A stretch of 64,000 bases of DNA from an uncultured Lachnospiraceae bacterium (GTDB lineage Bacteria; Bacillota; Clostridia; Lachnospirales; Lachnospiraceae). The stretch covers positions 1-64,000 of the forward strand of contig CAOKOL010000011.1 of assembly GCA_948470335.1 (NCBI GenBank). Reading direction: 5' to 3'. Numbering within the stretch: position 1 is the stretch's first letter; each line of letters opens with the position of its first letter. A program made the translations under genes and the position numbers. The notes beneath the pieces were generated by a model that was given only the letters and a program-made list of their open reading frames with translations, was not told where the DNA came from and did not search any database. This document shows, one piece after another, positions 3,273 to 23,902 of this stretch.

Positions 3273-4262
3273 TTAAAACATCTCCTTGCTGCAAAGATCA
3301 ATCTCCTCGGAAAGCGCCTCATACACGCCCTCAAAGGTGGACACATCCAGTCCCTGAGAAGCACATGGAATAAAATACAGTTTTCCGCATTCCCCGCATG
3401 CTCTGCGTACCTCCTGCTTGATCTCATCGCGGGTCCAGCCCGGATGATCTACGGAAGCAGAGTCAATACCGCCCATGAAAGAGATCTGGCCGCCATATTT
3501 CCGGATCAGTTCCGGTATATTGTTCGTGGTCATAACGCCCTGCCAGATATCAATCCCCATATCAATCATGTAAGGAACCAAAGTGGCCGCATAGGAATCG
3601 GAATGATGAACAATCAGCTCCACTCCCTGACTTTTATAGTATCCATAAATTTCCTTATAGGCGTCCACAAAAAATTCCGCAAACATGTCAGGGGAAATAA
3701 AGGTGGATATCTGGCTTCCCCAGTCATCATGATGGAACAGCGCGTCAGGATGAATGTGGCTGCAGAGCGTCTCGGCATATTGAAGCTCCCATTCCGTCAG
3801 GTATTTGATCAGATCTGCCACCGCCTCCGGTTCATCATAAAAATTCACCAGTGAGTCCTCAATCCCCATAAAATAATGAAGCCGCTCAAACAGCCCCGGC
3901 GCAATCATCGGCGTCACAAACTGATCGGCCCGGTCAACAGCTTCCGCCTCTTTGACCGCCGTTTCCCACTGCTCCTCCGAAAATATCAGATTGGGCGCTT
4001 TAATCACATTTTTCCACTCCGTAATGTCCTTCAAAACACGATGGGCATCATCATGTACCGGAAAAGGCCCCGGCGTACCTTCCGGCCAGGAAAGGGTAAC
4101 TCCCCAGCGATTTGTCACATTATGCTGGCCGTACTCCGGATAGGGATCCGTCATATTAAACGGATCTGTCAGCACAAATCCCAAATATTCGTACTGATTT
4201 ACAAACCGGTCCGGATGGCCTCCATGAATGGTCTCTAAAAGGTTCTGTTTCTTTGTCAGCAT
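3273..4262 (-). CDS. URO-D/MtaA-family protein, HHSDS subtype (paralogue A)
   Basis: A 329-residue TIM-barrel protein of the uroporphyrinogen decarboxylase superfamily, which also holds the MtaA/CmuA-type cobalamin methyltransferases. It starts with M-L-T-K-K-Q-N-L-L-E-T-I and has HDDWG at 178-182. Where methyltransferases have the zinc motif H-x-C, it has H-H-S-D (219-222). It is clearly the sister of the gene at 20397, with motifs at the same residue numbers. It is not HemE: the heme-type N terminus is absent and there are no haem genes nearby. The start at 4262 is preferred to an upstream ATG because GGAGAGA precedes it. It is last in an apparent operon with an MFS and an NhaC-type carrier. 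Substrate and reaction are unknown; demethylation or decarboxylation is inference. Confidence 0.85.
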   Translation of the reverse strand: MLTKKQNLLETIHGGHPDRFVNQYEYLGFVLTDPFNMTDPYPEYGQHNVTNRWGVTLSWPEGTPGPFPVHDDAHRVLKDITEWKNVIKAPNLIFSEEQWETAVKEAEAVDRADQFVTPMIAPGLFERLHYFMGIEDSLVNFYDEPEAVADLIKYLTEWELQYAETLCSHIHPDALFHHDDWGSQISTFISPDMFAEFFVDAYKEIYGYYKSQGVELIVHHSDSYAATLVPYMIDMGIDIWQGVMTTNNIPELIRKYGGQISFMGGIDSASVDHPGWTRDEIKQEVRRACGECGKLYFIPCASQGLDVSTFEGVYEALSEEIDLCSKEMF

Positions 4263-4307
4263 AATACTTCTCTCTCCTATCTGCAGTTTATCTGCCTTCA
4301 TACAAAT

Positions 4308-5648
4308 TTACCATTGCATCCATAAACCTGCCGCCCCATACGTCACGGCAGCAGCAGCAGCGCCGATCAGCACATAAGGCAGTGCTGTTTTAAACTGTGT
4401 GTCATTGGGCACGTCCGTTCCCGCCGCCACCATGAAAATCGCATCCGAATACAGACAGGCCTGGCTGCCCAGCGCTACGCCGGACATAATCGCCGCAATC
4501 ACCAGAGACGGATTTACACCCATCCGGACCGCCATCGGCAGAAAAATCGGAAAAGCGATAACGATCAGCGACCAAAAGGATGCCGCAAAAAATGTGATGG
4601 ATGCCACCGACACGAAAGCGATCAACGGAATGCTCCACGCCGGAAATGTCCTGGATATCAGGCCGGTCAGATACGTCATAAAGCCCATCTCCTCCACGGC
4701 CGCCTCCATAATAAATGTTACATACATCGTAATCAAGAGCGGCATGATCGTAGACGCTCCCGCTGTAAACGTATCTAAAATATCATTCAGTTTCATTCTT
4801 TTTTCCAGCAAAAGCATCACAGCCATCACGGCCAGGCCGGTCAGCATACCTGCGATAATGTTCTGCCCAAATGCCAGCATTCCCACAATCAGCGCTGCCA
4901 TCGGCAGCAGAAAATGACGGGGAGACGCGGCTTTCACAGGCTCCTTTGCGTCTTTTGGCATTTTCACGCTGTTTTCCAGCAGCGGACCGCCGCATTCTGC
5001 CCGGTCATAAGCCTTTTTCAGTGTCCCCAGCTTCGGAAGCTTTCCCGCCGTCAGCAGCAGACTGATGATAATCGCGTAAATCGGATAAAACATCAGCGGA
5101 ACCGCAGCCAGATATTCCTTCATGCCCATTCCATGTCCGGCAGCGCAGGACACGGCAAAAGCGGCCCAGCTGGACACAGGCAGCAGCACACAGACACAGG
5201 CTCCCATACAGTTCACCGTATACGCCAGGTGCTCTCTGGGAATCCGCATTTTATCCGAGATTCCTTTCATTGACTCCGATACGGCCAGTGCGTTCAGATA
5301 ATCATCGATAAAAATAACGGCGCCCAGCAGCCAGGTACAGAACAGCGTTGCCGCCCTCGTTTTGCAGAATTTCTCCAGAATCCTGCGAAACCCCAGTGTC
5401 GCTCCGGATTTCTCCAGCAGCGCTGACATACCCGCAAACCCGGTTCCGACAATCACCAGAAGCTGAAAAGATTCGTCTGTCAGAACCTGATACATTTTTT
5501 CTATATATACCGTCATAAAATCGGCGCCCGCAAGCATGGCTACCGCCGCCACGGAACTAATCACCGCCGGCTCAATAATTCTTCTGGTCGCCAAAGCGCC
5601 CACAATCAGAAGCAGGAACGGAATTCCGGCCATCAACTGCGTATTCAT
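4308..5648 (-). CDS. NhaC-type Na+/H+ antiporter family permease
   Basis: A 446-residue integral membrane protein with about eleven or twelve hydrophobic segments. The highly conserved NhaC-family segment F-I-D-D-Y-L-N-A-L (about 115-123), followed by the P-R-E-H-L-A-Y loop and V-S-S-W-A-A-F, supports the family. The family exchanges Na+ for protons or for organic acids (malate-lactate type), so it may carry an organic acid for the neighbouring URO-D protein. ATG 5648 overlaps the stop of the upstream MFS gene by four bases (ATGA), indicating coupled translation. The URO-D gene follows 45 bp downstream. Confidence 0.85.
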   Translation of the reverse strand: MNTQLMAGIPFLLLIVGALATRRIIEPAVISSVAAVAMLAGADFMTVYIEKMYQVLTDESFQLLVIVGTGFAGMSALLEKSGATLGFRRILEKFCKTRAATLFCTWLLGAVIFIDDYLNALAVSESMKGISDKMRIPREHLAYTVNCMGACVCVLLPVSSWAAFAVSCAAGHGMGMKEYLAAVPLMFYPIYAIIISLLLTAGKLPKLGTLKKAYDRAECGGPLLENSVKMPKDAKEPVKAASPRHFLLPMAALIVGMLAFGQNIIAGMLTGLAVMAVMLLLEKRMKLNDILDTFTAGASTIMPLLITMYVTFIMEAAVEEMGFMTYLTGLISRTFPAWSIPLIAFVSVASITFFAASFWSLIVIAFPIFLPMAVRMGVNPSLVIAAIMSGVALGSQACLYSDAIFMVAAGTDVPNDTQFKTALPYVLIGAAAAAVTYGAAGLWMQW

Positions 5649-6841
5649 TGTTCGTCAGCCTTTTTATTCATTACTTTATAAACTGCCGCAGCAGCAAAGA
5701 CAACTGCCATAATCCCGGCATAAACCGGCAGAATCGCCGTAATGTTATCAGACTTCACTGCCGACATCAGAAATGTCAGAAGATAGGGCATCGGAAAATA
5801 CGACAGAGAATTGGCCGTGGTCACAAGACCCGTAGCCGTACCCACCATATTTTCCGGAACCACCACCGTACTTCTGAAAAACCAGTAGGTGTATGCGGTT
5901 CCCCAGGCCGCGCCCATTATGCCGCTGACGATCATGGCCGTAGTCCTTCCCGGCGCCAGATAAAGCACCAGAATACCGACTGCCAGCAATGCGTAAGCAG
6001 GCAGCGTAATTTTCGTTTTCAGCTTCCCATAAGTAAAACCAAAGGCGGAACATGCCACGAAAGAACACAGCGTTCCGATTGATGCCAGCAAACCGGTAAA
6101 AGCGGCATCTCCCAGTCCGTTTCCGGACACATACAGGTCAATATAGGTATTTACCGTCATGTAGGCCAGGCTGACAAAAAAAAATGCCAGAAGGATCGGA
6201 ATCAGACGGTTTGCCCATCCCTTCTCTCCTTTCACCTTTTCTGCGCTGCCCGCAGCCCCTGCGCTCTGGGGCGGGCAGGCCGGCACAAAGAAAACCGCCA
6301 GAACGGCTACGACCAGCGCCAGCCAGTTTACCTGGAAGGCATACGTCCATTTGATTACAGCCAAGTTGCCGTAAAGCAATGCCAGCACTGCTCCCACGGC
6401 CGCCATGGCACCATTGTACCAGCCCATTACCTGACTTCTCTGTTCTTCATTATGGAAACAGTCCGTAATCAGACCAATTGAAGATACGGATACCATGGCA
6501 TAACAAATCCCGCCGTTTAAACATGCCGCCACAACTTGTCCCACATTGCTGTATGCCAGCAGTCCGCCGAATACGGAACCTGTAATGGCAAATAAAATCA
6601 GACCTGACACAAACATCAGCTTTTTGTCAATTTTATCGGATATTTTCCCTGCTGCCAGACAGGCTGCCAGACCTATGACGCCGGGCAGAGCCATTGTCAG
6701 GTTAATTGCCCATTCTTCCAGATTGGCATACATCTCCGTCATAACCATAGCGTATACCGTGCTGCCCATAATGCCGATATTGCTCAGAAAAAGAATCAGG
6801 ATCAGCATGATGGTTTTGATGTCATATTTTCTTTTCTCCAT
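5645..6841 (-). CDS. Major facilitator superfamily transporter
   Basis: A 398-residue permease with about twelve transmembrane segments. Between the second and third helices it has the MFS signature A-G-K-I-S-D-K-I-D-K-K (about residues 51-61). The cytoplasmic mid-loop lies near residues 190-210. The start at 6841 has GGAAGGAAAAA directly upstream; the open frame continues 90 codons further but that part reads as promoter sequence. It is the first gene of a three-gene operon (MFS, NhaC, URO-D) divergent from a PucR regulator, so its substrate is probably the inducer or a related compound. Confidence 0.88.
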   Translation of the reverse strand: MEKRKYDIKTIMLILILFLSNIGIMGSTVYAMVMTEMYANLEEWAINLTMALPGVIGLAACLAAGKISDKIDKKLMFVSGLILFAITGSVFGGLLAYSNVGQVVAACLNGGICYAMVSVSSIGLITDCFHNEEQRSQVMGWYNGAMAAVGAVLALLYGNLAVIKWTYAFQVNWLALVVAVLAVFFVPACPPQSAGAAGSAEKVKGEKGWANRLIPILLAFFFVSLAYMTVNTYIDLYVSGNGLGDAAFTGLLASIGTLCSFVACSAFGFTYGKLKTKITLPAYALLAVGILVLYLAPGRTTAMIVSGIMGAAWGTAYTYWFFRSTVVVPENMVGTATGLVTTANSLSYFPMPYLLTFLMSAVKSDNITAILPVYAGIMAVVFAAAAVYKVMNKKADEQ

Positions 6842-6960
6842 TTTTTCCTTCCTTTCTCCAGTTATTGATTTACATTTTCCTCCAGAATCAGGCCGGGACC
6901 TCCGTCCGGACAAATAGGAAAGCCCCGATCGTACAAACATTTTGTATGGGAGTATTTGCC

Positions 6961-6991
6961 GGTAATACTGCCATGGCAATACCGTATTACC
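6961..6991. promoter_or_regulatory. Palindromic candidate operator in the MFS/PucR divergent promoter
   Basis: GGTAATAC (6961-6968) and GTATTACC (6984-6991) are perfect inverted arms. Between them lies a further 10-bp palindrome, TGCCATGGCA (6969-6978). It sits in the 293-bp divergent region between the MFS operon and the pucR-like gene, about 120 bp from the MFS start. A TATAAT at 7045-7050 lies on the forward strand towards the regulator. The likely binder is the PucR-family protein encoded next door. Confidence 0.5.
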
Positions 6992-7134
6992 ATATATTTT
7001 TATATGTTTTGAATGTTTTACTCCCCTTTTCCCGTGTTTTATTGTATAATAATACTGAAATCCACAAAAAAACAATCTAACAAAATACGTATAAAGAAAA
7101 AATTTTTTCATACAAAATGTATAGGTGGCTGCTT

Positions 7135-8769
7135 ATGAAAGTAAATCTCTATCTGATTGCCGATTACCTGAAAGATATTCCTTTTGAAAAACATCTGACC
7201 GCCGACCCCCAGATTTGCGGTCTGACTCATGTATCCTGGTATACCTTCGATCTTCCCCCCGATCCTCATACACTGTATCTGATCTGCCGGGAACATCTGG
7301 CGGAAATTCCTCCTCATCAGGAAGCATTGTCCTTTCTCTGCATCGGAAATGTCCCTCCGGCGTATTTTGTTCCAAAGGTTTTTTCCGGGGAAACGCCGCC
7401 GGTCTCCCAGGATCAGTTCCTGTTGTTCCCGGAGGATACCAACGGCGCCTTGCTGTTACGGCAGATACAGCAGATTTTCCTTTTCTTCGACGACTGGGAA
7501 AAGAGGATGTATGAACTGCTCTGCCGCAGAGGCTCCCTGATGGAGTTATGTGAACACTGTCTGGAGCTGACGGACAATCCGCTCTGCCTGGCATCTTCTG
7601 ACCTGCGCATCCTGGCCTATGGAGAACATCAAAATAAGTCGGCGGAACTGAAAATGTTTTTTGAAAAAGATATCGGAGAGTACCTTACGGACGAGGAAAT
7701 AGACGCATTCCGGCTGGACAATGATTATCTGCGGGGCATAGCCGCCCGCAGTCCCTGTATTCTGAATAATGATTATTTTGGCTTTCGCCATTTCTATAAC
7801 AATATTTATATCGATGATATCTATATGGCCAGAATGGTTATATGTGAAGTAGAACGGCCAATCCGGCCCGGTGATTACGCAGTGCTGCTGAGAATCTGTG
7901 ACTTTTTTAAAATTGCACTGGAAAATATGGATATTGTCCTGAACAACCACCCAAAAAACTTTGACCGGCTGGTGAATCGGATGCTGAGGCAAGAATCAAT
8001 TCCTGACGAAGAAATGGATAAAACGCTGTCCGAAATCGGCTGGAACCATTTTGGCCTGTATTTCTGCGGCATAATCGAAAGTGATCTGGACCGCATCATG
8101 CACAGCTACCAGACCCTTTGCGGGCAGCTGGAAAAATTTTTAAAGGATGCTATGGCCATCCCGTTAGAAAACCGGATCCTTCTGATTGTGAATCTGGACT
8201 CCGCCTCTTTCACAAAGGAATCTGTCCGTTCTGCTCTGTCACCCTTTATACGGGAAAATCTGCTGCGGGTGGGGCTGAGTAATTGTTTCCGGCATTTCAG
8301 CGATCTGCCCATGTTTGTCGGACAGGCACAGGATACGCTGCACATGGGGCTCTCTATGGACGACACCATATGGTGCTACGATTTTGACTCGTACGCCCTG
8401 CCGATCCTGTTAGAACGCTGCGGCAAAGGACATAAGCCGGAAGACCTCTGCCTGGAAAAGCTGCAGACACTGATCAATTACGACAAAGCACACAACCGAA
8501 GCTATGTCCATACCCTGAATGTTTATCTCCGGCACAATATGAGCGTCGCGAAAACCATGCGAAGTCTCTATGTCCAGCGGGCGACTCTTTTATACCAGCT
8601 AAAACGCATTGTGGAAATATCTCAGCTAAACCTGCAGGACTATCAGACCCGGCTGTACCTGATGATTTATTTTGCGCTGGTTTCCCGTCCGCTTATCCAA
8701 TCCGCCAATTCAGCCGATATATCTTATATAGACCATGACGAATCCTGCGCCAAATCAAGAGGAAAATAA
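7135..8769 (+). CDS. PucR-family transcriptional regulator
   Basis: A 544-residue regulator. The last 70-80 residues form the PucR C-terminal helix-turn-helix: L-x-T-L-x-x-Y-L-R-H-N-M-S-V-A-K-T-M-R-S-L-Y-V-Q-R-A-T-L-x-Y-Q-L-K-R-I. The large upstream part has no DNA-binding signature and would hold ligand-sensing domains. PucR relatives control purine, allantoin and other small-molecule catabolism. ATG 7135 is preferred to ATG 7117 because AGGTGG lies eight or so bases ahead of it. It is divergent from the MFS-NhaC-URO-D operon, which it probably controls. One base separates its stop from the next gene's ATG, so the two may be co-transcribed. Confidence 0.85.
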   Translation: MKVNLYLIADYLKDIPFEKHLTADPQICGLTHVSWYTFDLPPDPHTLYLICREHLAEIPPHQEALSFLCIGNVPPAYFVPKVFSGETPPVSQDQFLLFPEDTNGALLLRQIQQIFLFFDDWEKRMYELLCRRGSLMELCEHCLELTDNPLCLASSDLRILAYGEHQNKSAELKMFFEKDIGEYLTDEEIDAFRLDNDYLRGIAARSPCILNNDYFGFRHFYNNIYIDDIYMARMVICEVERPIRPGDYAVLLRICDFFKIALENMDIVLNNHPKNFDRLVNRMLRQESIPDEEMDKTLSEIGWNHFGLYFCGIIESDLDRIMHSYQTLCGQLEKFLKDAMAIPLENRILLIVNLDSASFTKESVRSALSPFIRENLLRVGLSNCFRHFSDLPMFVGQAQDTLHMGLSMDDTIWCYDFDSYALPILLERCGKGHKPEDLCLEKLQTLINYDKAHNRSYVHTLNVYLRHNMSVAKTMRSLYVQRATLLYQLKRIVEISQLNLQDYQTRLYLMIYFALVSRPLIQSANSADISYIDHDESCAKSRGK

Positions 8770-8770
8770 G

Positions 8771-10417
8771 ATGTCAAAAATCAAAGACACAGCCACCCGC
8801 CCCGAAGTGTCACCCCTGGCGGGAAAAGATGTTCAACTGGCAAAACAGCAGATGGAAATGAAAGCCGGGCAGACCATAATCCGGGAAACTGCCAGAGCCA
8901 TCAGAGAACAGAGGGAACAGACAAAACAGACGGAACAAAAACAGTCTGCTGACTGCCAGACGGAAAACGACACCGCAAAGGACACCTCTGAAATCTCTGA
9001 AATCCACAGACGGCCCGGCGCAGACAGCACCGCCGGAACAAATGCTGCTTCCGGATGGTGTCTGGAAATGGACAAAAAAAACTGGGATGCCCTTCTTGCA
9101 TGGACCCCTACTCCCGGCGCAGATCTTTCCGCACAGGTGCAGGAGCTGTCCAAATTATATCTTGCTCTGCTGGAATCCATCCTGAAATATACGGAGGGAG
9201 AATGGCAGGCCCTTCAACTGGAACAGTTGGACACTCTGCTGGCGGAAAAGCTGCAGCTTCTGATGGATGCGGATCTGGAAGAAGTGGCACGGCTTCTGGA
9301 ACAGACCGGACAGAACGCGGCGTTAGACGGCATCAAATCCAGTATATACCGGCAGACCACCGGACAGTCCATTTCCGCCAGGGCGGTCAATGCCCTTTTT
9401 ACCCGCGCACGACGGTTTGGCGCTGGCAGCGGGTTTGATTTTATCGGAAATACCTCCGCCCGCAGCGCACAGGGAAAAAGCGGTTTGGGATCCGGATCCG
9501 GAGCCGGAGCCGGTTCTGCTTCCCGGTCATTCTCTTTCTCCGGTTCTTCTTCTGCCGCCCCATCTTCTTCCAAAGAAGGTCAGATCTACAACCGGACGGG
9601 CGAAAGAAGCCCGCACTTTTCACAGGCCTCTGCCGCCAGTCAGAAAAACTGGAAAGCCCAGATCCGGCAGCGGACCGAAGTCATCAGTCAGGCCCGAAAG
9701 GGCATCGCCGGAAACAGCCTGACACGGGGCGCCTCCGTCTCCTACACCGGAAAAGAGCTGGCACGGGCCAACCGGTTCGCCGCTCATATTAACGGCAGCG
9801 GCAACCTGTTTAAAAATCCGAAGATCAGCGCCCGAAACGAAGAAGTAACCGGACTGATGGCCGCCGTTATGTCCATCAAGGGACGCGTATTTGCCGCCGG
9901 CGCAGGAAAAGAAAACGCCATCGCCTTTCCGATGCAGAATGCCATTGATAAAATCATCGATCAGTATCTGCGGCAGAAAGATGCTTCCAGAGTTTATTAT
10001 TACACCATCTCCGCCTACGAAAAACAGAAAGACCCCGGACAGGCCATGAAAGACGGGCAGGCCTTTGCCTACCGGCAGTTTAAAGAAAAACAGGAGAATC
10101 CCGCCTGGCAGAAATCTCCTCATTATTCCAGGCAGGCCGGTTTTTTCCAGGCTCTGCTAAAAGGTCAGAGCCCGGAAAAAGAACAGGCCTTCGGTTTCCA
10201 TGTTCTGCAAAAAGACTGGCAGAGCTTTCTGAATACACTGGCAAAAAGCGGCGGGTTCTCCTATCGGTCAGAGCCTGAGCGGTACAGTCCGTGGGGCGCC
10301 ATGGCCAGTTCCGGAAGATCCCATACGGACAGCGGCGACGGAAATCTCGGAAAACTCCTGCTGGCTGCGGCGGTGATACTGATCGGGCTGGGAATCGTTT
10401 ATTTTTGGGTGCTTTAA
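8771..10417 (+). CDS. Unknown protein with a C-terminal membrane anchor
   Basis: I do not recognise this 548-residue protein. Residues 1-100 are polar, rich in Q, E, K and T, and probably disordered or coiled coil. Residues about 105-210 are a leucine-rich helical stretch. Residues about 215-285 are a low-complexity Gly/Ser/Ala linker. The region about 285-500 is basic and mixed. The final 23 residues are one hydrophobic helix with no charged tail after it, so this looks tail-anchored with the bulk in the cytoplasm. No signal peptide is present. The start at 8771 follows GAGGAAAATAAG and lies one base after the PucR stop; an earlier in-frame ATG at 8735 overlaps that gene. The 3' end overlaps the convergent MerR gene by four bases. 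Confidence 0.75.
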   Translation: MSKIKDTATRPEVSPLAGKDVQLAKQQMEMKAGQTIIRETARAIREQREQTKQTEQKQSADCQTENDTAKDTSEISEIHRRPGADSTAGTNAASGWCLEMDKKNWDALLAWTPTPGADLSAQVQELSKLYLALLESILKYTEGEWQALQLEQLDTLLAEKLQLLMDADLEEVARLLEQTGQNAALDGIKSSIYRQTTGQSISARAVNALFTRARRFGAGSGFDFIGNTSARSAQGKSGLGSGSGAGAGSASRSFSFSGSSSAAPSSSKEGQIYNRTGERSPHFSQASAASQKNWKAQIRQRTEVISQARKGIAGNSLTRGASVSYTGKELARANRFAAHINGSGNLFKNPKISARNEEVTGLMAAVMSIKGRVFAAGAGKENAIAFPMQNAIDKIIDQYLRQKDASRVYYYTISAYEKQKDPGQAMKDGQAFAYRQFKEKQENPAWQKSPHYSRQAGFFQALLKGQSPEKEQAFGFHVLQKDWQSFLNTLAKSGGFSYRSEPERYSPWGAMASSGRSHTDSGDGNLGKLLLAAAVILIGLGIVYFWVL

Positions 10418-11139
10418 TGACAGTAAATTTCAATCGCCCTGTATGCAAATTCTGCCGTGCCTTTGCCGCCGGCCCGGTTGATATTTTCTGTCATGCTGCC
10501 GCCCCCGGCATACATCTGTCCCAGGGAAAGCAGAATTTTTTCCGAGCAGGTGTAGAAATGCTCCGTGATATAGTCCTGCAGCTTTTTCACCTGCTCCTGC
10601 GCTGCCTGACCGGCAGGGTCAGATTCTTTCATGCCGCCGAATTCTCTGAAAATTTCCATCATTCCGGCGGAAATCCGATTATTTTCCTCCACTGTTCGTC
10701 CTTTCGATTTCTCCTCAAACTCCCTGTATTCCGGCGTCTGGCCCCAGAACGCTTTCGCCTGTCTGGCATATTCGTCCATCTTCTTTGTGTCAAATGCCTC
10801 AAAACTCAAATTTTTCACTCCTGTCATCTTCATTTTCCGGGCCAGATCAATCAGATTCTCCAGGTGCTCTTTTTTCATCTCCAGCAAAGTAATCTGCTGA
10901 TCGAGCGCTCTGTCCCTGTCAAATGCCGAACTGCCAAGAATCTCTTTAATGTCCTTCAGCGGAAACTGCAGCTCCTTGAACAGCAGAATGCATTGCAGCC
11001 GTTCCAAATCTCCGTCATCATACAGCCGATATCCCGCCTCCGTAACCCTGGCAGGACGAAACAGCCCGATCCGGTCATAGTGATGAAGGGCCCGGATGCT
11101 TACCCCTGTCAGCCGGCTCACCTCATGGACGGTCATCAT
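10414..11139 (-). CDS. MerR-family regulator, TipA type
   Basis: A 241-residue regulator. Residues 2-72 are the MerR winged helix (V-H-E-V-S-R-L-T-G-V-S-I-R-A-L-H-H-Y-D, then the G-Y-R-L-Y wing). Residues about 73-120 form the dimerisation coiled coil. The C-terminal part (about 130-241) matches the TipAS-like ligand domain with its F-W-G-x-x-x-E-Y pattern. Family members sense thiopeptides or other bulky drugs and autoactivate. The start has AAGGAG upstream. It is convergent with the tail-anchored protein gene and has its own promoter (see 11224-11254). Confidence 0.9.
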   Translation of the reverse strand: MMTVHEVSRLTGVSIRALHHYDRIGLFRPARVTEAGYRLYDDGDLERLQCILLFKELQFPLKDIKEILGSSAFDRDRALDQQITLLEMKKEHLENLIDLARKMKMTGVKNLSFEAFDTKKMDEYARQAKAFWGQTPEYREFEEKSKGRTVEENNRISAGMMEIFREFGGMKESDPAGQAAQEQVKKLQDYITEHFYTCSEKILLSLGQMYAGGGSMTENINRAGGKGTAEFAYRAIEIYCH

Positions 11140-11223
11140 GATTGCCCATCTCCTTTCCTGTGGTCTGAAATTGATGAAAGCGAATGTATTACTCCATTGT
11201 CACCGGTGCGCTTTCATCGGTTT

Positions 11224-11254
11224 ATCATATACTATGACGTAATGTCAGAGTCAA
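11224..11254 (-). promoter_or_regulatory. MerR-type promoter with 19-bp spacer and operator
   Basis: Read on the reverse strand: TTGACT (-35), a 19-bp spacer, then TATGAT (-10). The spacer contains the inverted repeat TGAC-ATTAC-GTCA between the two boxes. An over-long spacer with a dyad between the boxes is the hallmark of MerR-activated promoters. It lies about 85 bp upstream of the MerR gene on the same strand, so it is very probably its autoregulated promoter. Confidence 0.75.
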
Positions 11255-11386
11255 GAGGAGAGAGAAAAAAATTTTCAGGAAAAAATTTTGTTCCACTTAA
11301 AAGGAGCTGTCTGCTTTTCAGCAGGCCAGCCCCTTCCGGTTTTGTATAATATTTATCCCAATAACATCATAAAGCGTCCGACAGGA

Positions 11387-15176: not shown

Positions 15177-15179
15177 AGG

Positions 15180-16223
15180 CTACTCCTCCCGCCCGTAAAA
15201 TTCTCTGCTCTTTACATACATAAGCTCACGGGCCGTTTCATTCATACAGCGGCGGGAAACAATCAGCTGCTTGCCTTTCTCCAGATGCGCGATGATATTG
15301 TCCACCCAGCGTTCCGCCTCTTCTTTGGACACATCCAGTACTTTCTCATTCAGCGTCATTGTCAGCCGGTCGCCGTATTTTGCGTACAGTCCCCATATAT
15401 CGTTCAGAGGCTGCCCGTCCCAGGCATCCGCTCCGGCCTCAATCATCAGCGGAACAAATTCTTCCACCCTGCCGCAACAGTGGAAATTCAGGAAGATATT
15501 CCGGCTGTGAGCAGATTCCGCCACCCGTTTCAGATAAGGCAGCAGCATCTCCCGGCATACCTGCTCCGAAAAAAACGGACTTCTCTGAGCGCCCCAGTCG
15601 TCATGGAACACGATATACTCCATACCCATATGCTTTTTCATCCGGTCAAACAGCCGGTCATAGTAAATACAGAGCCGGTCAAACAGCCGGTGAACCGCTT
15701 CTTTCTGATCTTCGTCGATCAGGGCCACCGCAGCATCTTCAAAACCTATAAAAGAGATCAGCCGCTCAAAAAATCCCGTGTATACCATGGTGGAAGTAAT
15801 CAGATCGGGGCGGATTACTTTTCTGCTGCTTTCCTCAATGACTGCCCAGTCCCACTGATCCGGATCGGGAAATACAACGTCTGCCTCCCAGTTCTCAATA
15901 TCCTTTACCAGCCGCACACCCGGTTTTTCCATGGAACCTCTTGCCACCGGCACATATACCCATTCCACACCAAAGCTGTCCGGGCCGCCCATCTCTCCTT
16001 CAAAAGGACGGCCGTCCATCACAAAGCCTCTTGCCACATTATCTTTAATTTCCCGGGGAAACACATGGTTCAGCTCCTGCCCCAGCCAGGCAGGATCCCT
16101 GTGGGAGGCAACCAAAATATCATTCTCTCTGGGTGTAATCGGGGTACGGAAATTCGCCCCCCGGGCAGTCCGCTCCGCTGCGCCCACTTCTTTTTCATAA
16201 TCAAATGGATAGTTTGCCATCAT
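15180..16223 (-). CDS. URO-D/MtaA-family protein with full zinc motif (paralogue B)
   Basis: A 347-residue URO-D superfamily protein. It has T-P-I-T-P-R-E-N near residue 30, G-G-P-D-x-F-G-V near 79-86, HDDWG at 207-211, and H-C-C at 248-250. The last of these reproduces the H-x-C of MtaA/CmuA methyltransferases, and Cys326 in R-R-C-M-N sits where the third zinc ligand is expected. It is the only one of the five paralogues with all three ligands. That makes it the best candidate for a true zinc-dependent methyltransferase. It lies 57 bp after an IT-superfamily carrier gene. Its closest relative in the window is the gene at 21454. No corrinoid-binding protein is seen nearby, so the methyl acceptor is unknown. 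Confidence 0.87.
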   Translation of the reverse strand: MMANYPFDYEKEVGAAERTARGANFRTPITPRENDILVASHRDPAWLGQELNHVFPREIKDNVARGFVMDGRPFEGEMGGPDSFGVEWVYVPVARGSMEKPGVRLVKDIENWEADVVFPDPDQWDWAVIEESSRKVIRPDLITSTMVYTGFFERLISFIGFEDAAVALIDEDQKEAVHRLFDRLCIYYDRLFDRMKKHMGMEYIVFHDDWGAQRSPFFSEQVCREMLLPYLKRVAESAHSRNIFLNFHCCGRVEEFVPLMIEAGADAWDGQPLNDIWGLYAKYGDRLTMTLNEKVLDVSKEEAERWVDNIIAHLEKGKQLIVSRRCMNETARELMYVKSREFYGREE

Positions 16224-16280: not shown

Positions 16281-17585
16281 TCAATCTAACAGTCCGTACA
16301 ACCCGGTCACACCAAACAGGATAAAAAATCCCCAAACCACAAAAGTGACCATCAACTGCCAGTTGACCATTTTTGTCCGTTTTTCTTCATCGGGCATCCC
16401 CGCCACTACCAGGCTGCCGCCGGTGGAGAAAGGCGACATTCCCGTGGCCAGCGCGCCGAGAGCTGCCGCCGAGGTCATCAGCGTCAGATTTGCGTCCCTG
16501 GCGGCCGTCACTGACAGGGCGATGGGCATCAGAAGCGGAATCACCACCGTAACGCCTCCGGTGAAAAAGCTCAGAAAGCCTCCGCACACAATTAATACCA
16601 GTACGATCAGGCCCATGCTGATATCACTGTGCAGAAATGTTTCCACCAGCTCCATAATGCCGGCCTCCGTGGCCACGCCCAAAAGCATATTGATACCGCA
16701 GACAGACAGAATGGTTCCCCAGGGAATCACATCCCGGATAATCTTTTTCTCATCTCCCAGCCCCAGGGCCGAGCAGGCGATGGCGCCCAGAATCGAAATC
16801 ATCTGCGGGTCAAAATACCGGTTCAGATACCCGGTCACCGGATTTGGCGCCACGATCTCCGTCAGAGCCGGAATCAGCATCACGGCCAGGGCAGTCAGCA
16901 CGATCAGCAGATTTGTCTTCTGCACCTTATTCAGCGTTTCGGGCTTTTTCAAGTACATGGGGCGGGCTTCATATCCCTTCAATGCCATATATAAAACAAT
17001 CAGGACCAGCAGTGCGCCCGCAAAAAAATTAAAGCAGATTTTCATGGATATTCCAAAGGCATGCTCGGAAAACTGGGTATCCTTTGCCATTCCGCAGATC
17101 ACCGCGCCGGCAGTGCCCCAGGGCACACAGGCGCCCGCACCGGAACCCGTGGCGATCAGCATTCCCATTATGGCAGGATGAATACCGGTTTTTGCCGCAA
17201 TGGCAAAGCAAATGGGCGCCATAAATGAACAGACCACCGGCGGCGACGCCCCGAATACCGCAAGAATAAAACAGACAAAATATAGAATAAATGGAATGAT
17301 TTTTGCCCGGTTCTGAAATCGGTAAATAATCTGGCTGGCCAGCACCTGCAGCGTGCCGTTATCTACCGCATAGCCGTAAAACAGGCTGACCGACATCAAT
17401 AGGAACAAAATCTTTACGGAAAAAAGCTGCGTCAGAGCAGATACTTTCATTCCCATGCCAAAACAGCCAATGAGATACGCAAAAGCAATGGCATACAGAC
17501 CTGTATTTCGTTTCGTCTTATTATTAAGCACAATGGCGACAAATACCGCCGCCAGACTGAAAATCATGAACCCGTGGTTATTCAT
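16281..17585 (-). CDS. Dicarboxylate carrier-like (MatC/IT superfamily) permease
   Basis: A 434-residue membrane protein with about twelve hydrophobic segments. Two related halves are visible, as in the ion transporter superfamily (SLC13, CitM, ArsB, MatC): P-x-V-x-x-F near residue 115-120 and G-M-S-P-F-S-T-G-G-S near 385-394. The start M-N-N-H-G-F and the general character resemble malonate/dicarboxylate carriers of the MatC type. It sits between an FCD-type GntR regulator and a URO-D gene, all on the reverse strand. MatC-like carriers are often controlled by FCD regulators. A carboxylated substrate is likely but not proven. Confidence 0.78.
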   Translation of the reverse strand: MNNHGFMIFSLAAVFVAIVLNNKTKRNTGLYAIAFAYLIGCFGMGMKVSALTQLFSVKILFLLMSVSLFYGYAVDNGTLQVLASQIIYRFQNRAKIIPFILYFVCFILAVFGASPPVVCSFMAPICFAIAAKTGIHPAIMGMLIATGSGAGACVPWGTAGAVICGMAKDTQFSEHAFGISMKICFNFFAGALLVLIVLYMALKGYEARPMYLKKPETLNKVQKTNLLIVLTALAVMLIPALTEIVAPNPVTGYLNRYFDPQMISILGAIACSALGLGDEKKIIRDVIPWGTILSVCGINMLLGVATEAGIMELVETFLHSDISMGLIVLVLIVCGGFLSFFTGGVTVVIPLLMPIALSVTAARDANLTLMTSAAALGALATGMSPFSTGGSLVVAGMPDEEKRTKMVNWQLMVTFVVWGFFILFGVTGLYGLLD

Positions 17586-18567: not shown

Positions 18568-18766
18568 CATATTCCTCCTTCTGTCATTTCTGATCTTTTC
18601 TTCGCATTTCTTTTATTTATTATACCATATATATACTTTTTATAAATAACTTACATATTTTTCTATGTTTTGCACAAAAAACATTCTTTGTCAATCAGAA
18701 AACCAACACAAAAAAATGTATTTTTCGACAAACAAAAGCCTTTTATGCAAAACAGAGATTCCATAT

Positions 18767-18780: not shown

Positions 18781-18987
18781 TTAATTTACAACCAATCTTT
18801 CCTGTGTTACGCTTTAACTGCAAAGCCGCGGTGAAGCGGTGGAATTTCTGACGCAGGTACGTCGTTCCATCCATCTATAAAGCTTCTGAAATCACACACC
18901 GTACGGAAAGCGCCGGAATTTTCACAGCCATTGCCGCAGGATGACATTTTACCATTTATATTTCATTATTTTACGGGAGGTAGAACT

Positions 18988-20379
18988 ATGAGTGACAAGA
19001 AAAGCACCTATTCCGGACTCGCATGGCGTTATGGTATGACCAACGGATTTTCCACATTGCTGACAACCGTAGCCAGCACTTACTGGGCATTATTCCTGAC
19101 CGGCGCCGTGGGCATGGAGCCCGCCGTTATGGACACCATTTTATCCATCAGCAGCACGGTAGACCTGGTTTCAATTCCGGTCTGCGGCGTTGTAATGCAG
19201 AAGGTACGTCTCGGCGGCGGCAAATGGGGTGTGTTCCGTCCCTGGCTGCTGGCAGGCGGCGCCGTTGCGGCTCTCTGCCGCTGGCTGAGCTTCACAAATC
19301 TGGGACTGACCGGCACGGCTGCCGCAGCCTGGTTCGGCGGCATGTATATTCTCTGTTATCTGGCATTTAATCTTTGCTATTCCGCATTTACGGGTATCCT
19401 GCCTCTGATGGCAAAAGATCCCACCGACCGTGTCAGCTTTGCATCTGCAAGAACCACCTGCAATTCCGTAGGTAAATTCGTATTCTCACTGACATCCGTG
19501 GCGCTGGTCGGCTTCTTTGGCCAGGGCAATGACGCAAAAGGCTATTCCATGCTGGCCGGCCTGATCTCCATTCTGGTTTTCGTCGGATTTACCCAGTTGT
19601 TCTTTGCGGCCAAGCCTTATGACGTGCTGAAAAAAGATGACGGCGCAGAGACAAAAGCAGCCAAAAAAGACCAGTACTCCGCTTCTTTCTGGGAAATGCT
19701 GAGATTTTCCATTACCAAGCCTTTTGTACTGTATCTGCTGGGCTCCACCTGTAAGGGAACGATATTCTTTATCATTACTTCCCTGGCCCCTTATTACTAC
19801 TCTTATGTGGTAGGCGACAAGTCCATGCTGACCGTTTATATGTCCGCTTCCACATTCCTGATGATCGGCGGTTCCTTTATCGCGCCTTACGTGAGCAAAC
19901 TGTGTAAGGGCAGCCGGAATACGTTTGCCACCGGTGTCGCCATCTACGGCGCATGTCTGGGCGTTGCCTATTTCTGCGGCGCCAATGCGACGATGTTCAC
20001 CATTTTCTTAAGCGTCGGCTATGTGGGATATTCTATCGCCCATGCCGCGGAAGCCGCTCTGTACTCCTGCGTGGTTGACTATACGGAATGGAAGCACGAC
20101 AAGGATCTGAAACCGTTTATGATGACTTTATTCTCTCTGACGCCGAAGATCGGCACCACCGTGGGCTCCATGGTATTCGGTTTCGGTCTGGTAGCCGTAG
20201 GCTTCAACGCGGACAATGTAACCGCTTCCGCCGCGAACGGTATCCGGATGCTGTTATCCGGCCTGCCTGCGATCCTGGCCATTATGTCCGTAATCTTTAT
20301 GGCTCTCTGCCCGCTGTCCGATCAGAAGGTAAAAGAGATGAGCGCCGAGCTGAAAGCAAGAAGAGAAGCAAGACAGTAG
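18988..20379 (+). CDS. GPH-family (MFS_2) sodium:sugar-type symporter
   Basis: A 463-residue membrane protein with about twelve helices. Hallmarks of the glycoside-pentoside-hexuronide family are present: D-L-V-S-I-P-V-C-G near residue 55-63, G-K-W-G-V-F-R-P-W-L-L-A-G-G (about 75-90), N-L-C-Y-S-A-F-T-G near 130, and Y-S-C-V-V-D-Y-T-E-W-K near 355-365. The family imports sugars, glycosides and sometimes other small organics with Na+ or H+. The start at 18988 follows GGGAGG; 19 codons of upstream open frame have no such site. Two URO-D genes follow within 75 bp each, so this is the uptake gene of that operon. Confidence 0.9.
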   Translation: MSDKKSTYSGLAWRYGMTNGFSTLLTTVASTYWALFLTGAVGMEPAVMDTILSISSTVDLVSIPVCGVVMQKVRLGGGKWGVFRPWLLAGGAVAALCRWLSFTNLGLTGTAAAAWFGGMYILCYLAFNLCYSAFTGILPLMAKDPTDRVSFASARTTCNSVGKFVFSLTSVALVGFFGQGNDAKGYSMLAGLISILVFVGFTQLFFAAKPYDVLKKDDGAETKAAKKDQYSASFWEMLRFSITKPFVLYLLGSTCKGTIFFIITSLAPYYYSYVVGDKSMLTVYMSASTFLMIGGSFIAPYVSKLCKGSRNTFATGVAIYGACLGVAYFCGANATMFTIFLSVGYVGYSIAHAAEAALYSCVVDYTEWKHDKDLKPFMMTLFSLTPKIGTTVGSMVFGFGLVAVGFNADNVTASAANGIRMLLSGLPAILAIMSVIFMALCPLSDQKVKEMSAELKARREARQ

Positions 20380-20396
20380 CCTGAAAGGAATTTTCT

Positions 20397-21389
20397 ATGC
20401 TGACAAAAAGACAAAATCTGCTGGAAACCATCCGGGGAGGCAATCCCGACCGGTTTGTAAACCAGTTCGAACCTTTCGCCATGATCAGGCAGACGCCGGT
20501 CACGGCAAATAATCCAAAACCTGTCAAGGGAGGGCCCAATGTGGTAAACAACTGGGGCATCACCCTGCAGTTTCCGGAAAATACCCCCGGCTCTTTCCCC
20601 GTACATGACGAAGATCATATCGTAATCAAGGATATCGCCCGGTGGCAGGAATATGTCCATGCGCCCCGGATGGATTACACGAAAAACGACTGGGCCCCCT
20701 ATATTGCCGCGGCAGAGCAGATCGACCGGAATGACCAGTTTCTCACGCTGTCGGTAAGCCCCGGTATTTTTGAACAGTGCCACAATCTGATGAAAATGGA
20801 AAACTGTCTGATTTCCTTTTATGAATATCCCGATGAAATGCATGGACTGATCGATTATATCGCAGAATGGGAACTGGAATACGCAAGACAGGCCTGCGCC
20901 TGGCTAAAGCCTGATGCCCTGTTCCATCATGACGACTGGGGCAGCATGATCTCCTCTTTCATGTCTCCGGACATGTTCCGGGAGTTTATGGTTCCCGCTT
21001 ATCAGAAAGTATACGGATATTACCGGGACCATGGCGTGGAAATCATCGTTCACCACAGCGATTCCTATGCCGCCAATCTGGTTCCCGCCATGATTGAGAT
21101 CGGCATTGATATCTGGCAGGGCTGCGCCACCACCAATCAGGTTCCGGAGCTGATCCGCCAATACGGAGGACAGATCTCCTTTATGGGCAATATCGACAAC
21201 GGCGTGGTGGACCGGGCTGACTGGAGCCGGGAGATAATCGAGCGGGAAGTACGCCGGGCCTGCGAAACCTGCGGGCGGCACTACTTTATTCCCAACACCA
21301 TTATGGGCGGGCCGGCCAGCACTTATCCCGGTGTTTATGAGGCCGTCACCGAAACCATTGATATGATCAACCGGGAATCAGACCTGTAA
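20397..21389 (+). CDS. URO-D/MtaA-family protein, HHSDS subtype (paralogue C)
   Basis: A 330-residue protein, clearly the sister of the gene at 3273-4262. Both start M-L-T-K-x-Q-N-L-L-E-T-I, both have F-P-V-H-D near 67-71, F-H-H-D-D-W-G-S at 176-183, I-V-H-H-S-D-S-Y-A-A at 217-226 and I-D-I-W-Q-G. The zinc-type H-x-C is replaced by H-H-S (219-221), so if a metal is bound the ligand set must differ. It follows the GPH transporter by 17 bp with AAAGGA upstream. The next URO-D gene starts 64 bp after its stop. Two structurally different URO-D proteins made from one operon suggest successive steps or a heteromeric complex. Confidence 0.86.
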   Translation: MLTKRQNLLETIRGGNPDRFVNQFEPFAMIRQTPVTANNPKPVKGGPNVVNNWGITLQFPENTPGSFPVHDEDHIVIKDIARWQEYVHAPRMDYTKNDWAPYIAAAEQIDRNDQFLTLSVSPGIFEQCHNLMKMENCLISFYEYPDEMHGLIDYIAEWELEYARQACAWLKPDALFHHDDWGSMISSFMSPDMFREFMVPAYQKVYGYYRDHGVEIIVHHSDSYAANLVPAMIEIGIDIWQGCATTNQVPELIRQYGGQISFMGNIDNGVVDRADWSREIIEREVRRACETCGRHYFIPNTIMGGPASTYPGVYEAVTETIDMINRESDL

Positions 21390-21453
21390 ACAGTAATCAA
21401 CGGTCTAAGGATCCCCACTGACTATTTACCTGCAAAGCAAAAAGGAGGATTAT

Positions 21454-22518
21454 ATGAAAAAAATACCGTTTTCCCCTGATGAATTAAAAGAAGTAGGCCG
21501 TTACTATGTGGCAGGCCGCACCGACGGCGGAAAAATCAAACTGGACACTCCCATCACCCCACGGGAAAATATGCAGGCTTTTCTGAACAGTGAAACCCCC
21601 TGCTGGATGCCCAACGGCGACCTGATTACCATCACCCCTGAGATCGTTCCCGATAATGTTGCCCGGGCCTTTATTCAGGAAGCGGACCCCTCGGACCGCA
21701 AAGGCGGCCCGGATATGTTCGGCGTAAACTGGATTTTTGACGAAGCTGCCAACGGCTCTATGGTGGTTCCCGGCAGTCCGATTCTGGAGGATGCCAATGA
21801 CTGGAAAGAGGTTATCAAATTCCCCGATGTGGATTCCTGGGACTGGGAAGGCTCCGCAAAGAAAAACGCCCGGTACGTATCCGGAAACGACCCGGTTTGG
21901 ACCGTACAGTTTTCCGGTCTGTTTGAACGGCTGATCTCTTTTATGGACTTTGAATACGCCGCCGTGGCGCTGATCGACGAAAGCCAGAAAGAAGCGGTAA
22001 AGGATCTGTTCGAAGCCGTTACCGATACTTATATCAAAATTCTTGACCACAGCATCGAGGCATACCATGTGGACGGCTATCTGCTCCATGACGACTGGGG
22101 TTCTCAGCGGGCGCCTTTCTTCTCCAAGGCAACCTGGCTGGAAATGATTGCGCCTTATGTGAAAAAAATGGTGGACTACTGCCATTCCAAAGGCATTATT
22201 TTCGAGCTTCACTCCTGCGGACGTACGGAATCCATGATTGATGTGATCAGCTCCATCGGCATCGACATGTGGCGTCCTCAGCCCATGAACGACCTGAAAA
22301 AGATGTATGAGGAATACGGCGACCGGATCAAGCTGGGCGTACGCGCACCCATGTTCCCGCCGGGAACGCCGGACGACGTACAGATCCAGGCCGCAAAGGA
22401 TCTGGTATCCCAGTTTAACATCCCCGGCAAATATGTGTTTACCAGCAACTTTATGGAATCCGACATTTTCAGAAAAGCTTTATATGAAGCGAGCCGGAAA
22501 GCATATCTGGAACACTGA
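21454..22518 (+). CDS. URO-D/MtaA-family protein, H-x-C subtype (paralogue D)
   Basis: A 354-residue protein related to paralogue B at 15180. Shared features are T-P-I-T-P-R-E-N (32-39), P-D-N-V-A-R (66-71), G-G-P-D-M-F-G-V, L-F-E-R-L-I-S-F and A-L-I-D-E-S-Q-K-E-A-V. HDDWG is at 212-216. H253-S254-C255 matches the first two zinc ligands, but the third cysteine position (Cys326 in paralogue B) appears to be Phe333 here (S-N-F-M-E-S). Activity may therefore use a different third ligand. AAAGGAGGATTAT precedes the start. It is the last gene of the GPH/URO-D/URO-D operon, and a strong terminator follows. Confidence 0.86.
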   Translation: MKKIPFSPDELKEVGRYYVAGRTDGGKIKLDTPITPRENMQAFLNSETPCWMPNGDLITITPEIVPDNVARAFIQEADPSDRKGGPDMFGVNWIFDEAANGSMVVPGSPILEDANDWKEVIKFPDVDSWDWEGSAKKNARYVSGNDPVWTVQFSGLFERLISFMDFEYAAVALIDESQKEAVKDLFEAVTDTYIKILDHSIEAYHVDGYLLHDDWGSQRAPFFSKATWLEMIAPYVKKMVDYCHSKGIIFELHSCGRTESMIDVISSIGIDMWRPQPMNDLKKMYEEYGDRIKLGVRAPMFPPGTPDDVQIQAAKDLVSQFNIPGKYVFTSNFMESDIFRKALYEASRKAYLEH

Positions 22519-22593
22519 GCAGCCGGTCAGAAACAATCGTATATCAAAACGGACCATATACCATTATCGTACCCCCTTAATCAAACATAGAAC

Positions 22594-22637
22594 CAGCGCC
22601 CTGCCGGACATTTATGTCGGCAGGGCGCCGGTTTTTT
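22594..22637 (+). terminator. Strong intrinsic terminator after the URO-D operon
   Basis: GCGCCCTGCCG (22596-22606) pairs with CGGCAGGGCGC (22618-22628), extended by an inner GACA/TGTC, and is followed by six T residues at 22632-22637. It lies between the forward URO-D operon and the convergent URO-D gene at 22649. Confidence 0.85.
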
Positions 22638-22648
22638 ACATGATCTGC

Positions 22649-23902
22649 TCACTTCTTCCCATAATTCCGCACCGTATCCATCAGTGCTTCCACATTCTCT
22701 TTCTTTGCCAGATCCATACCGCAGGAAGTCTCAAAAATAAAACCGCCTCCGGCCGCACAGCCGTCGATCAGCCGTTTCGCCTCATCCACTACCTGCTCCT
22801 TTGTGCCATAATCCAGCAGATACACTGGAAAACCGCCGGAAATACAAGCCGTGTCCCCCAATACCTTTTTCGCCCGTACCATATCAACTTCTTCAAAATG
22901 ATAGATCACCTTGCCTGCCGGCACCTCTTTTAAGCACTCCAGACGGCTGTCATATCTGCCTTCCGTGTAAATATAAGGCACCATTCCGGAATCAATAATA
23001 CAGTTGATAATCGTACGCAGATGATCCCAGTAGAATTCCCGGTAATGCTCGTCGCTCATAAAACCGTCCATGCCTTTATGAAGCGCCATAAACACATGCC
23101 TGCCGGGAATCATATTTCCCTGCATTTTAACCAGCTCCAGCGTCGCTGCCAGTTGTTCCTCACAGTATGCCTTTACCTCATCAGGACGCTCATACAGGTC
23201 CGCCAGCCCGTCCAGCGTGCCGCGCAGGAAATCGCTGTATCCGTCATAGGGAACCCCGGCAAATCCCGTGGCCAGCACAGGATACCCATATTCCTCAATC
23301 TCCGCGTCCAGGCGGTGCAGACGGCCGTTCAATTCCTCATTCATGTCATTGACTTCCCAGAGCGTCCGCATCATATCCTTAAATTCCGGCGTGCTGACCG
23401 CTGCCGCCACCATGCCGTGGCTGTTGAACACCCCCATGCTGCCGGCGGCAAAACCGGCGAAAGGCTCAAACAGTCCGTTGGTTTTAGGCAGGCCCTTATT
23501 CAGAACCCATCCGGCCCGGTCCGTAAAAAACTGTCCAAATTCTTCCTCTTCCAGTACCGGAAATTCAACAAACTGATGAATAGAATTTTTGTTGATTATA
23601 TTTCCCGGCATCCCGGCCCAGCGGATCGTTTTCGGCCGCACCTTTTCCAAAATAGGCCCCTGACCGATATTCACATAGCTGTGGCCAAACATGGCATCCG
23701 GCGTATAGGTATCCAGATATTGAAACAGACTCTTCCGGGTTTTGCTCAGGTCTGTGTCATATAAAATATCTGCCATGGAATATCCTGCCTGCAGATAGGG
23801 AAAGCACTGTACAATCGGCATAAAGGGAATCGTATCCGGCTCCTTCAATGCGATGGCATCATTCACCCTGTTTAAACGTCTCCGGTAATCTTCTCTGCTC
23901 AT
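22649..23902 (-). CDS. URO-D superfamily protein, divergent subtype (paralogue E)
   Basis: A 417-residue member, longer than the other four. It starts with the R-V-N-D-A-I-A-L-K-E-P-D-T-I-P-F-M-P pattern common to MtaA-like proteins. The HDDWG segment is replaced by M-A-L-H-K-G-M-D-G-F-M-S. The H-x-C position reads Y-I-Y-T-E-G-R-Y-D-S-R, and the end has E-T-S-C-G-M-D. It therefore lacks the methyltransferase zinc site. The start at 23902 follows AAGGAGG; 48 codons of upstream open frame read as promoter. It is alone on the reverse strand, convergent with the operon ending at 22518, and divergent from the VWA/MoxR pair. Function unknown; a binding or accessory role is as likely as catalysis. 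Confidence 0.82.
   Translation of the reverse strand: MSREDYRRRLNRVNDAIALKEPDTIPFMPIVQCFPYLQAGYSMADILYDTDLSKTRKSLFQYLDTYTPDAMFGHSYVNIGQGPILEKVRPKTIRWAGMPGNIINKNSIHQFVEFPVLEEEEFGQFFTDRAGWVLNKGLPKTNGLFEPFAGFAAGSMGVFNSHGMVAAAVSTPEFKDMMRTLWEVNDMNEELNGRLHRLDAEIEEYGYPVLATGFAGVPYDGYSDFLRGTLDGLADLYERPDEVKAYCEEQLAATLELVKMQGNMIPGRHVFMALHKGMDGFMSDEHYREFYWDHLRTIINCIIDSGMVPYIYTEGRYDSRLECLKEVPAGKVIYHFEEVDMVRAKKVLGDTACISGGFPVYLLDYGTKEQVVDEAKRLIDGCAAGGGFIFETSCGMDLAKKENVEALMDTVRNYGKK

Follow-up and report, generated by a model that had tools for sequence, protein, structure and literature searches.

What do five paralogous genes of the uroporphyrinogen decarboxylase (URO-D) superfamily do at one bacterial locus, together with four transporters and two regulators and away from any gene for a corrinoid protein? 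The locus lies in the window analysed here, the first 64 kb of contig C11 (CAOKOL010000011.1) of an uncultured Lachnospiraceae bacterium with a 3.87-Mb genome in 86 contigs (93.4% complete). As judged from sequence comparison, the five URO-Ds are probably substrate-specific, corrinoid-dependent first methyltransferases (MT I), and most would act as spokes around a common corrinoid hub encoded elsewhere in the genome. The genes in question, referred to below by their first coordinate, are as follows.

3273..4301, minus strand: URO-D, clade A; PF01208 46.4 bits; HDD and H-x-D motifs; predicted substrate-specific corrinoid MT I
4308..5648, minus strand: NhaC-type Na+/H+ antiporter family permease, module 1; PF03553 51.9 bits
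5645..6841, minus strand: MFS transporter (MFS_1), module 1; PF07690 94.9 bits; open reading frame (ORF) open to 7111
7135..8769, plus strand: PucR regulator, divergent from module 1; PF13556 (HTH_30) and PF17853 (GGDEF_2); ORF open from 7117
15180..16223, minus strand: URO-D, clade B; PF01208 28.6 bits; HDD and H-x-C-G motifs; predicted MT I
16281..17585, minus strand: MatC/CitMHS-type organic anion permease; PF07158 90.4 bits, PF03600 78.7 bits
17872..18570, minus strand: GntR-FCD regulator; PF07729 and PF00392
18988..20379, plus strand: GPH-family cation symporter (MFS_2); PF13347 210 bits; ORF open from 18931
20397..21389, plus strand: URO-D, clade A; PF01208 66.9 bits; predicted MT I
21454..22518, plus strand: URO-D, clade B; PF01208 36.6 bits; predicted MT I
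22649..23902, minus strand: URO-D, clade C, CdmB-related; ORF open to 24046; predicted MT I of the O-demethylase/haloalkane type

Genes of the window and the URO-D set of the genome

All five URO-D ORFs are intact and exceed the cut-off of PF01208 (28.6–66.9 bits versus 23.9), and Pfam matches likewise bear out the four transporters of NhaC, MFS, MatC-like and GPH type and the PucR and FCD-GntR regulators named in the initial annotation. With TIGR00792 the GPH symporter scores 201.9 bits, under the cut-off of 231.35. The two divergent regulator/transporter/URO-D modules described in that annotation are real, with a refinement of the second: the genes for GntR, MatC and the 15180 URO-D form a minus-strand run, the GPH symporter and URO-Ds 20397 and 21454 form the opposite run, and the 22649 URO-D is a separate minus-strand gene. 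Likely starts at 6841 (MFS), 7135 (PucR), 18988 (GPH) and 23902 (last URO-D) were judged from ribosome-binding-like sequence upstream; homologues of 22649, mostly 413–420 aa among those listed, agree with the start at 23902, and the length of relatives places the likely true start of the 3273 gene at about 4265. No match to PF02310 or PF14574 was found on the window's contig, and the 10 kb on either side of each of the five URO-D genes hold no corrinoid match. The earlier statement that corrinoid protein and activator are absent holds for this contig (MtaB was not searched for), but both are encoded elsewhere in the genome.

The five-paralogue locus was correctly seen but makes up a small share of a set that extends across the genus. 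PF01208 matches number 37 in this genome, where one is interrupted by an internal stop, and 40 and 27 in two other genomes of the genus; four further intact paralogues recognized by similarity (one at C66) bring the number of intact URO-D genes to at least 40. We tabulated 40 URO-D rows, comprising 39 intact genes and one fragment, with C1:19732, which has no matching model, left out. A regulator (PucR or a GntR like that of the window) and one of six transporter types occur within 6 kb in 25 of these rows, and a corrinoid protein within 10 kb in one. In the stretches examined from this genome, the cluster of PucR ORFs counts 19 members, that of the window included, and the GPH cluster 12, with partial ORFs among them. 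Among those neighbours of the PucR/GntR-transporter units that were checked with Pfam, which are part of all neighbours, the sole other catabolic enzyme is an Orn/Lys/Arg decarboxylase downstream on C32. Such a scarcity would fit enzymes that take a small group off a compound and leave its skeleton otherwise unused.

The units look reassorted rather than copied whole, because distances among PucR proteins correlate weakly with those among URO-Ds (Mantel r 0.42, p 0.0004, 14 units, with clade C mixed with the rest) and transporter distances do not (r −0.18, p 0.89, nine units, two of which share one GPH gene). Duplication of whole modules was rejected on these grounds. At C1:123100-124800 (L034), an intact clade C gene has a URO-D fragment of its own clade immediately upstream and a PucR gene as neighbour, and at C3:172269-180520 (L036) a cobalt chelatase gene (CbiK) adjoins a PucR/DcuC/DASS unit with two URO-Ds.

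Corrinoid partners and their pairing with URO-D clades

The genome encodes five cap-type corrinoid proteins (PF02607); PF02310 retrieves the same five and a 607-residue frame over its cut-off. Their genes are distributed as follows, MeTr denoting a methyltransferase of the methyl-H4folate (Pterin_bind) type.

C21: corrinoid gene, with a clade C URO-D, a DASS transporter, a Pterin_bind MeTr and PucR as neighbours
C42: two corrinoid genes, one adjoining an MttB gene and MeTr, the other adjoining a BCCT transporter
C17:67419: corrinoid gene adjoining members of the MttB and BCCT clusters
C17:34212-34886: corrinoid gene, the hub candidate, with MeTr C17:35024-35836 and PucR C17:36212 beside it

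PF01208 has no match on contig C17. The closest solved relatives of the C17:34212 protein are 1y80 (cobalamin-binding protein), 7xcn (trimethylamine corrinoid protein) and 4jgi, and those of the C17:35024 MeTr are 4o0q/4o1e; the authors of the CdmB study used 4O1E to place CH3-H4folate in their second methyltransferase, MT II (PMC13222342). The reductive activator RACo is encoded by two intact genes, on C12 and C8. The earlier alternative that partners lie elsewhere is supported by these activators and by C17:34212-35836, which encodes a corrinoid protein and a methyl-H4folate methyltransferase of matching type. There are also two matches to acetyl-CoA synthase (ACS), one of them in an operon with CFeSP subunits, MeTr and RACo. 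A third RACo-type activator, at C2:108853-109423 (L031, L032, L060), is split into two short matches and resembles a pseudogene.

In the paralogue tree of this genome the five window genes fall into three clades, A (3273 and 20397, 55.7% identical), B (15180 and 21454) and C (22649). An HDD motif is common to clades A and B; clade A has H-x-D whereas clades B, D and E have H-x-C-G, and clade C is without either motif. In a PDB search 22649 matched the CdmB chain 9rui, a haloalkane methyltransferase, at E 3e-25; the CdmB crystal structure is reported to show no zinc (PMC13222342). Neither 3273 nor 15180 had a PDB match at E 0.01; 20397 matched a HemE chain at 0.0076 and 21454 an unrelated protein at 0.0056. 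Profiles of clades A and B had no PDB match at E 0.01; at E 10 that of clade B gave two weak matches, to other proteins. In a fold search the models of 20397 (AlphaFold, mean pLDDT 95.7) and 21454 match URO-D and the Methanosarcina mazei methyltransferase 4ay7/4ay8. The cut-off of TIGR01463 (MtaA/CmuA, 235.4 bits) was missed by four of the proteins with 21–36 bits (maximum 35.8), 15180 not being among the listed matches, and that of TIGR01464 (HemE, 302.95 bits) was missed by 22649 with 26.8 bits, the other four not being among the listed matches.

The neighbourhoods of relatives link these clades to corrinoid systems. A scan of 84,980 species genomes gave at least 538 confirmed relatives of clade A, and our counts refer to the best 80 of these, relatives of 20397 that include Acetobacterium species, Blautia schinkii, Sporobacter termitidis and Alkalibacter mobilis. 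In the loci of other genomes, ORFs were assigned to clades and families, six transporter types among them, with hidden Markov models built from this genome's proteins, and families unlike these stay unlabelled. Within the 80 loci there are 27 with a corrinoid match (25 strong), 22 with MeTr, 22 with RACo, 36 with PucR and 15 with GPH; immediate adjacency on one strand is less frequent (5 of 80). Many of the loci are near-copies of a few arrangements in Blautia and Oscillospiraceae and do not represent 80 independent events. Near clade A genes, 30 of 31 strong corrinoid matches are closest to C17:34212 of this genome's five proteins, 22 of them at 64–81% identity and eight at 45–48%, and all 20 MeTr proteins near clade A relatives are closest to C17:35024. 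At one locus (L100) RACo, MeTr, corrinoid, three clade B genes and one clade A gene stand in a row. Linkage to a corrinoid protein and MT II was seen for relatives of clades A to C, to which the five window genes belong, and of clade D, but not for E; in the URO-D tree the corrinoid-adjacent genes are placed within these four clades. Among 200 genomes of the family, RACo is found in all 36 with a clade B profile match (1e-15) and in 80 of the 164 others (Fisher p 3.8e-10). At two loci (L187 in genome G170, L189 in G171) clade B URO-Ds lie near matches to the MttB and BCCT models, as if quaternary-amine and URO-D systems shared loci.

Which clade goes with which corrinoid type was examined in 20 regions from Acetobacterium wieringae, A. 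tundrae and Alkalibacter, chosen for a corrinoid match near a URO-D gene. A corrinoid gene lies within 400 bp on the same strand for 14 of 17 clade A genes, the single clade B gene, two of six in clade D, three of six in clade C and neither of two in clade E. Where a corrinoid protein lies within 1.5 kb, the nearest one is of the C17 type for genes of clades A (14/14), B (1/1) and D (3/3), and of the C42/C21 type for those of clade C (3/3, all Alkalibacter).

Not every observation fits a common corrinoid partner so assigned. No corrinoid match is present in 53 of the 80 clade A loci, and outside the 20 regions a C42-type protein (45%) adjoins a clade A gene (L121) and a C17-like protein (52%) adjoins a clade C gene (G195). 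In addition, Pfam searches of ten neighbours of clade A genes at seven loci found no corrinoid partner. Unrelated conserved contexts of the five genes elsewhere would have spoken against the initial annotation; despite the 53 loci lacking a corrinoid match, we see mostly the opposite, since a context that recurs in relatives is often a corrinoid methyltransferase operon.

In the family, many URO-D genes face few corrinoid genes. Over 23 genomes (two genus mates and 21 of the 36 that match the clade B profile) the ratio of URO-D to PF02607 matches runs from 1:2 (G144) to 27:1 (G002), with 24:1 in G170, 17:1 in G186, 13:1 in G194 and 11:1 in G195. The median is 7.4, with 11 of 23 genomes at 8 or more, when three MetH-sized matches are removed, and 7.0, with 10 of 23, when none is; in G004 and G181 the MeTr and corrinoid matches share one long frame, as in MetH. 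In named species, with MetH-sized frames kept in, the ratio of URO-D to cap-type proteins is 28:36 in Acetobacterium dehalogenans, 26:29 in A. wieringae, 33:26 in A. tundrae, 31:31 in a metagenome-assembled genome of A. woodii, 33:23 in Alkalibacter mobilis, 32:5 in Sporobacter termitidis DSM 10068 and 15:7 in Blautia schinkii; this genome has 37:5 by PF01208. Genomes with 24 and 27 URO-Ds and a single cap-type corrinoid protein, against about 1:1 in Acetobacterium, support a hub-and-spoke layout.

The best C17-type match is 65–93% identical in 16 of 22 relatives and 42–55% in the other six, and the C17-type gene of G144 has an internal stop. We inspected 6–17 kb around the hub in 15 of the 22 relatives and in this genome: 13 of these 16 stretches are without a URO-D match, and in 13 of 16 MeTr adjoins the hub corrinoid gene. 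In G062, outside those 16 stretches, a clade B gene stands beside the hub. In G152 (contig C3; L238:100-2955, minus strand) one 951-residue frame encodes a Pterin_bind MeTr (56% identical to C17:35024) followed by a cap-type corrinoid part (65% to C17:34212), which ties the hub MeTr and corrinoid protein together. Its C-terminal part has no Pfam match and is weakly clade D-like (E 3.7e-5 to C56:13871; 12.5 bits with the URO_D model), a lead that hints at a hub working with a URO-D-fold enzyme.

Predicted mechanism and competing explanations

Taken in the broad sense, MT I appears to be the proper class for the five proteins, given their URO-D fold and family, the linkage of their clades to corrinoid protein and MT II, and the partners encoded in the same genome. 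Built on gene content, neighbourhoods, family counts and the kinship of partner sequences, the following scheme predicts partner binding, reaction, induction and substrates. Each URO-D would demethylate an imported compound and load the methyl group onto a B12 protein common to many such enzymes. Since corrinoid type matches by clade, the acceptor for 3273, 15180, 20397 and 21454 is predicted to be the corrinoid protein C17:34212-34886, and that for 22649 a protein of the C21/C42 type, the best candidate being the one on C21, whose neighbours are a transporter, a MeTr and a clade C URO-D. Transfer of the methyl group to tetrahydrofolate, to feed the Wood-Ljungdahl pathway, would then fall to the methyl-H4folate methyltransferase C17:35024-35836, and the RACo-type activators on C12 and C8 would hold the cobalt reduced. 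A transporter/URO-D unit with its regulator may be seen as a plug-in spoke, in which the regulator would sense the methylated compound and the permease import it; the demethylated product would exit the cell again, so no further catabolic enzyme would be needed. Inducible uptake and demethylation, as envisaged in the initial annotation, gain support from the corrinoid contexts of relatives, whereas the decarboxylation offered there as an option finds none, though the fold alone is compatible with it.

An extension of this scheme is more speculative and in our judgement rather doubtful: that one or two B12 hubs serve some 30–40 separately regulated demethylases, and that the GPH and sugar-ABC branches act on O-methylated sugars or glycosides besides methoxylated aromatics, in a gut-type acetogen lineage. 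O-methylated sugars are a live option beside methoxylated aromatics because GPH and sugar ABC transporters adjoin URO-Ds; we know of no assignment of O-methylated sugars or glycosides to corrinoid enzymes, and a literature search listed none. Sugar-type ABC transporters stand next to four URO-Ds, at C53:3614-14348, C8:37925-43472, C1:19732-24687 and C49:2164-7514 (L054, L037, L033 and L053, respectively), and the C53 locus also holds FGGY, PfkB and ROK kinases and two zinc dehydrogenases. Such neighbours suggest demethylation inside a sugar pathway.

The pairing of A and B genes in the window (20397/21454) and on C32 could also mean that clade B is a second, thiol-methylating methyltransferase of the MtaA kind, A/B neighbours relaying the substrate to a thiol and bypassing tetrahydrofolate. 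The H-x-C-G motif, which is kept in clades B, D and E and resembles what we take to be two of the three zinc ligands of MtaA, would agree with this, as would the 604-residue metagenomic protein P0179, a full clade A unit joined to a truncated clade B unit, be it a natural fusion or an assembly slip. We nevertheless regard such a relay as unlikely: no third cysteine column common to clade B was found, the MtaA/CmuA model is missed by a wide margin, a MeTr-corrinoid-URO_B run in G062 (L176) puts clade B in the MT I position while the sole A gene lies apart on the other strand, and a corrinoid/URO_B pair occurs in L275.

Less probable still is a role without corrinoid, in which the proteins would use the URO-D fold to decarboxylate or otherwise convert imported carboxylic acids. 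Their fold is equally close to URO-D, several of the transporters come from organic-anion families and most units are without a local corrinoid gene, but relatives in clades A, B, C and D adjoin corrinoid proteins, mostly of the matching type, and the scores of 22649 with the HemE model are far under its cut-off (the others not being listed). New chemistry without a corrinoid was set aside, as the neighbourhoods of relatives hold corrinoid systems. Finally, the assembly, in 86 contigs and 93.4% complete, might be incomplete or contaminated and have lost corrinoid genes, so that URO-Ds seem in excess. We give next to no credence to such an artefact: the genus mates are also rich in URO-Ds (40 and 27, with six and one cap-type corrinoid matches), the same excess is seen in family genomes that are 97–98% complete (for example G170, G194 and G195), and Sporobacter termitidis DSM 10068 has 32 against 5.

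Known systems, significance and remaining genes of the window

The sharing of a corrinoid protein has a precedent in the MttB-family quaternary amine systems of Eubacterium limosum, where several MT I share MtqC; those enzymes belong to a different MT I superfamily and are only a handful. The system proposed here is like the O-demethylase and Cdm systems of acetogens (OdmB/VdmB/MtvB, CdmBCA) and archaeal MtoB in combining a URO-D MT I, a corrinoid protein, MT II and an activator in a Wood-Ljungdahl host, and 22649 is a sequence relative of CdmB. CdmBCA is described as a cassette with its own corrinoid gene (PMC13222342), as are the four-protein systems of E. callanderi, one of them with two MT I (PMC12915777). 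In contrast to such cassettes, the spokes have a transporter and a regulator without a corrinoid gene, and at least 40 intact URO-Ds are accompanied by five cap-type corrinoid proteins. The clade A cassettes of Acetobacterium and Alkalibacter have similar components, namely a clade A URO-D (HDD, mostly HSDS), a corrinoid protein 60–64% identical to the C17 type and sometimes GPH or PucR, but their near 1:1 ratio of URO-D to cap-type corrinoid genes differs from the 37:5 found here. Type 1 mlp clusters (Kountz and Balskus) likewise have several URO-D paralogues per locus and corrinoid and activator partners in the system; their definition calls for Mlp genes linked, on one strand and within 2 kb, to those for a corrinoid protein and a Ram protein (PMC10418091). 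The window shows no such arrangement, its contig being without a corrinoid or RACo match.

The enzyme class and its expansions are already known, with 20 odmA homologues reported for Desulfitobacterium hafniense (PMC3306737) and 20 paralogues used as queries in the CdmB study (PMC13222342). The new part is a many-to-one layout on such a scale; a described hub-and-spoke URO-D system was not found in the open literature searched.

One way to trace how gut bacteria demethylate plant compounds and drugs is through the MT I genes of complete corrinoid systems. In a 2026 study of etoposide O-demethylation by Eubacterium limosum, the search began from the MT I of the E. callanderi four-protein systems, three of four close MT I homologues were disrupted without effect, and MT I proteins of lower similarity were among the explanations suggested (PMC12915777). 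If MT I are often orphan spokes that share a hub, many of them would escape searches that start from complete systems. The C17-type corrinoid protein would then be a single handle, whose removal should stop many demethylations together, and the many regulator/permease/enzyme units of the spokes could be screened for their substrates with a single reconstituted hub.

The remaining genes near the locus are of other kinds. Between the modules lie a gene for a BspA-type leucine-rich repeat protein and ORFs without a Pfam match; past the PucR gene, at 8735-11349, two ORFs of 560 and 352 aa, which partly overlap, stay below the Pfam cut-offs. Directly behind the last URO-D, 24222-27457 encodes a VWA-like/DUF2201 protein and an AAA ATPase (MoxR-like pair), and at 2767-3210, just past the 3' end of the 3273 URO-D gene, there is a match to a RelB-type antitoxin.

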